From Sulfuracidifex tepidarius (GTDB lineage Archaea; Thermoproteota; Thermoprotei_A; Sulfolobales; Sulfolobaceae): DNA of 64,000 nt. The translations under genes and the position numbers were made by a program. Location of the stretch: NCBI RefSeq assembly GCF_008326425.1, contig NZ_AP018929.1:1812875-1876874 (forward strand). The letters run 5' to 3'. Below, piece by piece: positions 11,001 through 13,174 of this stretch (its first letter is position 1; every line of letters starts with the position of its first letter). The notes beneath the pieces were generated by a model. It did no database searches. It saw nothing but the letters and a program-made list of their open reading frames with translations, and was not told the origin of the DNA.

Positions 11001-11049
11001 AGAGGGGCGGTACTACTATATTAAATATAGTAGTTTCGGCCACCCCTCT
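11001..11049. promoter_or_regulatory. Imperfect palindrome covering a TATA box
   Basis: An outer arm agaggggcgg (11001-11010) pairs with ccacccctct (11040-11049) with one mismatch. Inside, actactata is mirrored by tatagtagt around ttaaa. Read on the minus strand, the core supplies the TATA box (atatttaa) about 27 nt before the M48 protease ATG at 10994. The symmetry suggests an operator over the promoter. The remainder of 11050-11463 is A/T-rich and shows only the TATA box of the next gene (tttttaaaag near 11430). Confidence 0.45.
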
Positions 11050-11463
11050 GAAAAAATTAGGGCTCGTGTTTGACTGCTCTTTCTATATCTATTATAAGAA
11101 ACAAAACTCCTTTACCTTTAGGGGAAGGTTTTTTGATTCTATTTCACCAATCTACTATTTCTTTTGATATAATATAATTCTTTACTTCCTTTTGGAAGAA
11201 GAGTTATCAATAATTACCGACTTAAGTTAAACGCTATTCATACTATCAATCTTTATTTTTACGTATAACTAAACATTTTTTAGCTATAAACACAAGAATC
11301 TCCTGTTCTATCCTGAGATAACTATAAATAGAATAACTTAACTCATAATTACCGTAGTTAAACAAGATTTAATATTTTAAGATTATTATTGATTTTTCTT
11401 ATAGTTTAATAAAAAGTAAAACGAAATTTTTAAAAGCTAAGAATTCTGATATTTCACTTAGAG

Positions 11464-12204
11464 ATGGAAAGTAAATATTCTGAAATAGTCAAAGTCAACC
11501 TTCCGCGAGGAGTGTTAATTAAGATTATCAGTAATCCATTCGTTTTCATGTCTGTCACAACACACTTTGTCGTCCTGAGGAAGCTGGAGAATGGAAATTA
11601 TTTGGCTTCGCTTATAAATGATGGAGAAATAGGCAAGACGAAGCAGGAGTCCTATTACGGTGAGATCCTACCAGCCAGCATGGTAGGATCTACAGTAATA
11701 TACAAAGGCGAGTCCTTTGACAAGAAGATCAGGCTCGAGGCATCAGTTGATCTATCGTTCTTTGCAAAGGACGGATCAGTCAATATTTCAATGACAATAT
11801 CCACAGAAGACAAAGGACTTCTAGGCTGGGGTAAGGCCAAGTTCCCCATAACCGCTGAGCATGTGATAAAAGGCCATGTAATTCCAAACATTAAGAATTT
11901 CTCGTGTTTGATCAATGAGATGAACGAATCATGGACTGTCGACCCTATCGATGTAGCTAAATACGTGATGATGAAAGCTAAACAGATAGAAAGTGGATTA
12001 ATTCTAGTCCACAATTGTAGTACTTACGCATCATTCAAGGTCGAAGACGGGCAGATAAGCAAAGCTTCAGGTAAGTTCGGGAATCTCCTGATAACTGGTA
12101 ACGATGTCCTAATGAAGTTACTGCAAGAAAAGGAGAAGCTGACCTTAGAGATAGCAGACCCTTCAATGTTTAAAATAATAGAGGTAGTGAATGAAGTCCT
12201 TTAA
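11464..12204 (+). CDS. Unrecognised protein, first of a tandem paralog pair
   Basis: I do not recognise this 246 aa protein. It is clearly homologous over its full length to the product of the next gene: both begin with an acidic stretch, then PRGxLIKIISxPFxFMS near residue 16, VLRKLxxGNYL near 38, AEHVIKxHVIP near 139 and GNDVLxxLxQExEKLT near 222. The N-terminal 150 residues alternate strands in a way that recalls SRPBCC/START-like pockets. The last 80 or so look like a separate alpha/beta domain. No signal peptide or membrane helix is seen, so it is probably cytosolic. A TATA box near 11430 fits a leaderless start. Confidence 0.7.
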   Translation: MESKYSEIVKVNLPRGVLIKIISNPFVFMSVTTHFVVLRKLENGNYLASLINDGEIGKTKQESYYGEILPASMVGSTVIYKGESFDKKIRLEASVDLSFFAKDGSVNISMTISTEDKGLLGWGKAKFPITAEHVIKGHVIPNIKNFSCLINEMNESWTVDPIDVAKYVMMKAKQIESGLILVHNCSTYASFKVEDGQISKASGKFGNLLITGNDVLMKLLQEKEKLTLEIADPSMFKIIEVVNEVL

Positions 12205-12424
12205 TATTATATGGCCGCCTGAAGAGCAGATTTCTATTCAGAATTTCCGTGGTAATATCAGGTTTCATAAAAGATACTCCAGCACTATGTTGATCTTAGA
12301 CGGAATTGAATTTTTATCCTTTGACGCTCAATTTATAAGTCTAATCGAAGTGTAAGTTTAAATAGAGATAATCCGAGAATTTTCTAGGCATATGTTGGAA
12401 ATAATAAAAAACGGTGGTGAAAAA

Positions 12425-13174
12425 ATGGAAGATAGCTATAGCGAGTCGATGAAGATCGACATACCGCGTGGGTTACTAATCAAGATAATATCTGATCCAT
12501 TTATCTTTATGTCAACTACTGGTCACATCATAGTGTTGAGGAAACTCGACAGTGGTAACTACTTGATCGGCACAATAAATGATAGGGTTTTAAACGACAA
12601 AATAACCGAAAAGTCGAAGACAGACCTCTTCATCGGTGAACTGTCTCCTCCGAACTTCACTGGCTCTATGTTAATTTACAGAGGAGACACATTTGACGGT
12701 AAGGTCATTTTCGAGATAGTTGCCGACTTGACGTCATTTTCAAGGGATATGTCTCTGAACTTCTCCATGAAGCTTAAAGTCGATGAAGGAATACTGGGTT
12801 TCTTCAAGAACAGGTTAGCTACTGCAGAACACGTAATAAAATCACACGTAATTCCCACTTTTAAAAAGTTCTCTGATCTGACTAAAGAGGCAAGCGAACT
12901 GACGTTAATTGAGCCAGTAGACATACCGAAGTATATAGTTACGAAAGCTAAGCAGACCTTCAACGGGATAATGATGGTATACAACCCAAATATCTATGCC
13001 TTATTTAAGGTGGAGAACGGAACTATAACTAGGTCAGTAGCTAAGGTAGGAGAAACGTCGCTGAATGGGAACGACGTGTTGTTCAGATTAATTCAGGAAA
13101 GAGAGAAACTGACCGTAAAGACATTGGACCCATTAATGCTCAACGTCACCAGTATGGTCAATGAGTTAGCTTAA
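12425..13174 (+). CDS. Unrecognised protein, second of a tandem paralog pair
   Basis: This is a paralog of the gene at 11464, colinear over all its length (249 aa from this start). I chose ATG 12425 because ggtggtg lies 5 nt upstream and because the paralog's N-terminus aligns there. An upstream in-frame ATG at 12392 would add 11 residues. The protein carries the same PRGLLIKIISDPFIFMS and AEHVIKSHVIP blocks and ends with a GNDVLFRLIQEREKL block. The region between the pair (12205-12391) has its own A/T-rich promoter-like stretch (agtttaaatag, about 12355-12365), so the copies may be regulated separately. Confidence 0.7.
   Translation: MEDSYSESMKIDIPRGLLIKIISDPFIFMSTTGHIIVLRKLDSGNYLIGTINDRVLNDKITEKSKTDLFIGELSPPNFTGSMLIYRGDTFDGKVIFEIVADLTSFSRDMSLNFSMKLKVDEGILGFFKNRLATAEHVIKSHVIPTFKKFSDLTKEASELTLIEPVDIPKYIVTKAKQTFNGIMMVYNPNIYALFKVENGTITRSVAKVGETSLNGNDVLFRLIQEREKLTVKTLDPLMLNVTSMVNELA

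Follow-up and report, generated by a model that had tools for sequence, protein, structure and literature searches.

Tandem two-domain proteins of Sulfuracidifex tepidarius as candidate hydrophobic-ligand sensors or carriers from an unnamed Sulfolobaceae family

The SRPBCC/START (helix-grip) fold is already known from several kinds of proteins. Miyakawa et al. 2013, cited in PMC7718255, call STK_08120 a fatty acid carrier in their title, and PMC11962113 describes CoxG-like proteins of Sulfolobus acidocaldarius as membrane anchors of glycerol-3-phosphate dehydrogenase (G3PDH). A Rieske oxygenase is likewise described with a helix-grip fold in a passage of PMC12445004. Here, we examined two adjacent genes of S. 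tepidarius that lie in a stretch of 64,000 nucleotides (hereafter, the window) and encode proteins with an N-terminal SRPBCC domain and a distinct C-terminal domain (Table 1).

STK_08120-like proteins (PF11485, formerly DUF3211) share with the N domain of the pair the SRPBCC fold, the archaeal family in which they occur, and a distant profile similarity; however, most of those read are single-domain proteins of approximately 135 aa without a C domain, and the histidine triad described below is absent from them by eye. PF11485 matched neither the window proteins at E ≤10 nor 24 family members at E ≤5. Furthermore, a C-terminal tail, R[LM]ERI[KR]R[KR][IL], ends 21 of the 23 STK_08120-like proteins printed (L121–L147, with L127 left out of the count; the exceptions are L142 and L146), which suggests a shared partner or targeting signal. 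The R[LM]ERI[KR]R[KR] part of this tail, a criterion seen here and unpublished, is missing from both window proteins. CoxG (8uds) has the same N-domain fold, whereas the window proteins have a different C-terminal part and no Pfam match. In archaeal Hanks-type kinases (G359, G101, and G042), a domain like the C domain precedes the kinase, whereas in the window proteins it follows the SRPBCC domain. The pair thus represents an SRPBCC family that adds to this known fold a candidate three-His site and a putative regulatory domain of which little has been described.

We put the probability at roughly 0.4 that the pair encodes soluble sensors or carriers of a hydrophobic ligand, with a candidate His site and a regulatory output, belonging to an unnamed Sulfolobaceae family. 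The N domain would form a START/SRPBCC pocket that is closed by a long helix and holds a lipid-like molecule, with a fatty acid, a lipid intermediate, or a quinone as the expected ligand. The three His would together bind a metal or the ligand's polar head at a single site, and the C domain would signal to a partner protein whether the pocket is occupied, or else serve in dimerization. We have moderate confidence in this architecture-based reading and little confidence in the identity of any one ligand or metal.

The gene pair and its duplication history

The two genes are full-length tandem paralogs, as the original prediction had described them, with 77 of 150 aligned residues identical between the N domains (51%) and 40 of 94 between the C domains (43%). 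BLAST comparisons of the two proteins gave approximately 1e−80 in both directions, indicating a similarity beyond chance. For copy 2, the ATG at 12425 was preferred to that at 12392, since it matches the start of copy 1 in the alignment and has a Shine-Dalgarno-like GGTGGTG 5 nt upstream. Separate promoter-like regions had also been claimed for the two genes. TATA-like elements were found by eye at both copies, and a TTAAAA core also occurs 5′ of the copy 1 orthologs in both congeners (G026 and G025). That each copy has its own promoter is plausible.

Table 1. Positions of the gene pair and of its annotated elements in the window
Feature	Position	Strand	Remarks
Copy 1, TATA-like element TTTTTAAAAG	11427..11436	+	read by eye
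Copy 1, coding sequence	11464..12204	+	ATG at 11464, stop ending at 12204; 246 aa; SRPBCC domain and C domain
Copy 1, N-terminal SRPBCC (helix-grip) domain	11464..11919	+	residues 1–152; AlphaFold2, fold comparison
Copy 1, candidate triad His34 codon	11563..11565	+	N domain, alpha2/beta2 turn
Copy 1, candidate triad His133 codon	11860..11862	+	helix alpha3 (long helix)
Copy 1, candidate triad His138 codon	11875..11877	+	helix alpha3 (long helix)
Copy 1, C-terminal domain	11926..12201	+	residues 155–246; separate model, hhalign
Copy 2, TATA-like element TTTAAATA	12357..12364	+	read by eye
Copy 2, Shine-Dalgarno-like GGTGGTG	12413..12419	+	read by eye
Copy 2, coding sequence	12425..13174	+	249 aa; longer alternative start ATG at 12392, the start in the ORF list
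Copy 2, first candidate triad His codon	12524..12526	+	
Copy 2, second candidate triad His codon	12830..12832	+	
Copy 2, third candidate triad His codon	12845..12847	+	

The orthologs of copy 1 in G026 and G025 share 81% and 65% identity with it, respectively. In a tree of 71 rows, the pair and these two orthologs formed one clade (SH-aLRT 100), in which copy 2 branched outside the copy 1 orthologs (SH-aLRT 92), a placement obtained by a quick tree method that the long branch of copy 2 could mislead. The tree thus places the duplication within the genus. The one-contig congener G025 has a single copy here, approximately 115 bp from the dehydrogenase gene. The reading frame of copy 2 in G026 is broken by at least two indels before the sequence runs into N, its upstream region resembles that of copy 1 by eye, and, because this assembly is 71% complete, an assembly error is possible. 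The simplest story would be a duplication within the genus, after which copy 2 was lost or decayed in the two congeners examined. Accordingly, the argument that both copies were retained, and hence have divergent roles, is not supported, since copy 2 is absent from G025 and frame-broken in the incomplete assembly of G026. Judged from the comparison with the G026 ortholog (dN 0.103, dS 1.03, dN/dS 0.10), copy 1 is under purifying selection; dS was saturated in the other comparisons. Two long in-frame paralogs, their orthologs, and this ratio rule out chance ORFs.

On the 5′ side of the pair, an M48 peptidase gene is divergently oriented and is itself preceded by a DUF1947-PUA gene. Just upstream of the peptidase gene is a 21-base palindrome, CTACTATATTTAATATAGTAG (11013–11033, with one mismatch on one strand), which is the sole place in the window matching it with at most three mismatches (chance mean 0.01) and is a possible regulator site.

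Fold of the N-terminal domain and distribution of the family

In an AlphaFold2 model of copy 1 based on seven sequences (mean pLDDT 76.6, pTM 0.55), the predicted N domain consists of a strand at residues 2–10, helices at 15–23 and 25–32, strands from 35 to 114, and a long helix at 131–152, which is the helix-grip order (beta-alpha-alpha-beta sheet-long helix) of SRPBCC/START proteins. The top match of this domain by VIA-align was CoxG (8uds; Z 12.3, 134 residues, rmsd 3.2), which by the VIA-align rule ties with STK_08120 bound to myristic acid (3w9k; Z 11.7 over 131 residues). ABA receptors, at approximately Z 10, and other START-type proteins were also among the closest folds, with 429 of 1,000 aligned chains at Z ≥5, and Foldseek gave an E-value of about 5e−5. 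When the N domain was compared by hhalign with 21 STK_08120-like sequences, the result was 87% (10% identity over 106 columns), against a baseline of 0.1–1.7% from six comparisons between unrelated domains. Both the predicted structure and its comparison with known folds thus support the SRPBCC-like character that the original prediction had read from the strand pattern.

By sequence, neither copy had a significant Pfam, NCBIfam, PHROG, or PDB match, in agreement with the expectation that no characterized family would be clearly hit. Pfam returned no matches of any kind for the window proteins at E ≤10. Membership in a known Pfam or NCBIfam family was rejected, as no model matched the window proteins (24 members were also tried against Pfam), and so was a direct relative in the PDB, where the best E-value of 1.4 was taken as chance.

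The structural matches bear on two other explanations. The proteins might be plain carriers, whose N domain shuttles fatty acids or isoprenoid lipids in the manner of STK_08120 and whose C domain dimerizes or stabilizes. This would suit the presence of STK_08120 with myristic acid among the closest folds, the 87% profile comparison, the existence of members without a C domain, and the fact that a PF11485 gene directly adjoins a family member in two genomes (L035 in G004 and L155 in G021). However, STK_08120-like sequences lack the His triad by eye, and a plain carrier would not need a C domain that resembles kinase-fused domains; we regard this explanation as somewhat unlikely. A second idea, that the proteins tether a quinone-linked enzyme to the membrane as CoxG-like proteins do for G3PDH in S. 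acidocaldarius, draws on CoxG as the joint top fold match and on the zinc-type dehydrogenase gene found 3′ of the pair. The window proteins, however, had no Pfam match at E ≤10 and hence no CoxG match, and the dehydrogenase was seen as a neighbor only in the window and G025; a tether seems very unlikely. Under the preferred reading of a ligand sensor or carrier, the fold would provide a pocket that probably binds a lipid.

With copy 1 as the query, relatives were detected in 20 of the 31 Sulfolobaceae genomes, among them the window's own. A profile search for other archaeal copies had been proposed at the outset, and a 24-row family profile (A1) matched all 31 genomes, often repeatedly (1–7 matches each, one broken gene sometimes being counted twice), even though the window proteins match nothing in Pfam or NCBIfam. 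Seven of these matches, the pair and five others, lie in the window's own genome, and G023 has a single match (2033316–2034095). When 300 genomes sampled from the phylum were searched with the full profile, it matched 18, of which 15 were Sulfolobaceae; the three remaining genomes matched in the C-domain part only. The loci with names belong to Metallosphaera and other Sulfolobales. Some members have the N domain without the C domain (e.g., L013, L018, and L060), suggesting that the pocket can work alone. The family is real and conserved, and none of the libraries searched has a name for it. No paper about it was found in the open-licence literature, although others may exist.

Relatives were absent from the viral contigs searched, from plasmids for copy 1, and from phages for copy 2; the best PHROG E-value was 0.22, and a viral or plasmid origin was rejected.

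The histidine triad

Three histidines of the N domain (H34, H133, and H138 in copy 1) recur across the family, a feature newly recognized here. Of the 74 N domains that could be read, 68 carry the full triad and six carry none of the three His, with no mixed case. This count started from 82 ORFs with an N-domain match, of which the short fragment of G026 copy 2 was dropped; of the resulting 81, seven were set aside (four without the N-terminal part, two cut C-terminally, and L198, which was ambiguous). The profile used for gathering was built mostly from His-bearing members, so that His-less members may be missed. The two helix histidines are separated by four residues in 60 sequences and by three in eight; both are nonetheless kept despite this one-residue shift.

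On a tree constructed with the triad columns blanked, two changes were needed to explain the losses, one in L155 of G021 and the other in a group of five proteins (L068, L073, L197, L202, and L203). Because the three His are kept or lost together and were lost twice on the tree, they probably form one shared site, most simply for a metal or for the head of a ligand. Both losses lie on fast-evolving branches, and they are limited evidence for the one-site reading. If the triad does bind a metal, such a site would be unusual for an SRPBCC fold.

Rieske oxygenases hold their iron with H-x4-H plus Asp, a 2-His-1-carboxylate site in a catalytic domain that is preceded by an N-terminal Rieske domain. 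A metal-dependent enzyme with catalytic Fe or Zn on the three His in the SRPBCC cavity, comparable to this mononuclear iron, would account for the all-or-none pattern and for the H-x4-H or H-x3-H pair on a helix. The window proteins differ in that the chain starts with the SRPBCC domain, without a Rieske domain, and in that H-x4-H lies on the C-terminal helix, a different helix than in Rieske oxygenases. Moreover, the proteins have no known redox partner, and no carboxylate ligand was identified, which makes a catalytic role rather improbable.

The triad-less member L155 is also the one that directly adjoins an STK_08120-like gene in G021. The five triad-less proteins of the other group share a zinc-finger-like motif, CC-x3-F-x5-F-x2-H-x5-H, N-terminal to their SRPBCC domain; when two of them were searched against Pfam, L197 gave a weak match to zf-C2H2_jaz (E 0.24) and L068 gave none.

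The C-terminal domain and its likely relatives

Modeled alone, the C domain had a mean pLDDT of 85.7, and 66 of its 97 residues reached ≥90; the predicted order of elements was beta, alpha, four beta, alpha, beta, alpha. The distinct C-terminal domain proposed earlier is therefore predicted to fold on its own. It had no clear match among solved structures (best PDB Foldseek E 0.12; best VIA Z 6.1 over 80 residues); the best E-value among viral structures was 0.023, and none of these matches was trusted. Absence of the predicted fold from these match lists does not show that the fold is new.

By hhalign, the Sulfolobaceae C domains compared at 95.0% with three kinase-fused domains and at 96.6% with 11 DUF2226-like (PF09987) domains; these values are not independent, because most of the sequences had been chosen with the C-domain profile (A4), L110 and L112 having been gathered via PF09987 instead. 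Profile A4, whose rows already included the domains of G042 and G271, had matches in 28 of the 398 genomes searched, and 10 of these 28 lie outside Sulfolobaceae. A profile from Sulfolobaceae C domains only, run on the ORFs gathered so far, matched the kinase proteins of G042 (E 3e−6) and G359 (E 2e−5) and the proteins of G271 (E 1e−6), G236 (E 2e−6), G390 (E 6e−5), and G378 (E 4e−4). At E 1e−3, it missed proteins from G265, G351, G154, G101, and G212 (L097, L098, L100, L110, and L112). Based on these scores, the link to the C domain is good for G042, G359, G271, and G236 and weak for the rest. L053 is probably a chance match: although it scored E 3e−4 with the Sulfolobaceae-only profile and E 7e−4 in the phylum sample search, on par with the weakest outside matches, it reads as a PyrI-like protein.

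In G359, the C-like domain is N-terminal to a PF00069 kinase within one ORF. G101 has the same arrangement, its C-like domain having been found via a PF09987 match below the cut-off, whereas in G042 the kinase lies after the C-like domain in another (the next) frame. The DUF2226-like genes of G271, G236, G265, and G212 adjoin genes for T2SSE pilus-type ATPases (L211, L212, L074, and L219, each from a different family of Thermoproteota), and two of the four are also near T2SSF; the G212 protein was found through PF09987. The loci in G351, G390, and G378 gave no context clue. The DUF2226-like proteins read differ from the window proteins in having other C-terminal parts.

PF09987 itself matched in 11 genomes, but neither the window proteins nor 24 members, and nothing in G000. 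Five of its loci were read (L110–L113 and L116) and two were used; L111, L113, and L116 look unrelated. L110, one of the 11 DUF2226-like domains, is above the PF09987 cut-off (22.7 vs 22 bits). We found no work on DUF2226 in archaea in the open-licence literature.

PATAN/DUF4388 (PF14332) presumably resembles these domains in its G-x-x-A/V-L motif and its link to type IV pili. It matched none of 24 members, had no match above the cut-off in 151 genomes, and was not found in four bacterial plasmids. Matches below the cut-off occurred in 5 of the 151 genomes; of the two that were read, L105 resembles an RNA polymerase subunit and L109 an amidotransferase.

Proteins of G154 and its relatives (4 of 8 genomes) may have an SRPBCC-like part followed by a C-like part. 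In these proteins (L151–L154), the N part compared by hhalign at 3.0% with the N domain of the family and at 57.5% with the STK_08120-like set, and its best PDB E-value, 1.3, was taken as chance. The C part compared at 92.4% with the DUF2226-like set, 25.1% with the kinase-fused domains, and 16.3% with the C domain directly; it would thus be linked to the C domain through the DUF2226-like set only.

Because its likely relatives accompany kinases and pilus ATPases, signaling is favored over plain transport, and the C domain may serve as a signaling output. The genes read next to the window pair included neither a kinase nor a pilus gene. If the sensor reading is true, the pair would be an archaeal case in which a ligand pocket is fused to a regulatory domain of the kinase type. 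A bolder form of it, in which the proteins are metal-dependent lipid or quinone sensors universal in Sulfolobaceae, with a three-His metal center in the SRPBCC fold that bridges the alpha2/beta2 turn and the long helix and is read out by an unnamed domain that in other Thermoproteota precedes Hanks-type kinases and adjoins pilus ATPases, is unlikely. A little-described archaeal domain that appears common to kinases, pilus-locus proteins, and SRPBCC proteins could already be annotated.

In two genomes (G359 and G101; L214 and L215), a vWA gene lies near the kinase with the C-like domain, a neighborhood that recalls the kinase-vWA logic of archaellum control. Around the family members, no neighbor gene was common to all loci read, and a few were shared by two or three genomes. 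Small HEPN-like and nucleotidyltransferase-like genes, assigned by eye, lie directly 3′ of members in two genera (L161 and L158). A MarR-type regulator gene, also by eye, is beside or near members in three genomes (L067, L072, and L158), and a gene that by eye resembles a sugar-phosphate nucleotidyltransferase is near a member in two genera (L069 and L155).
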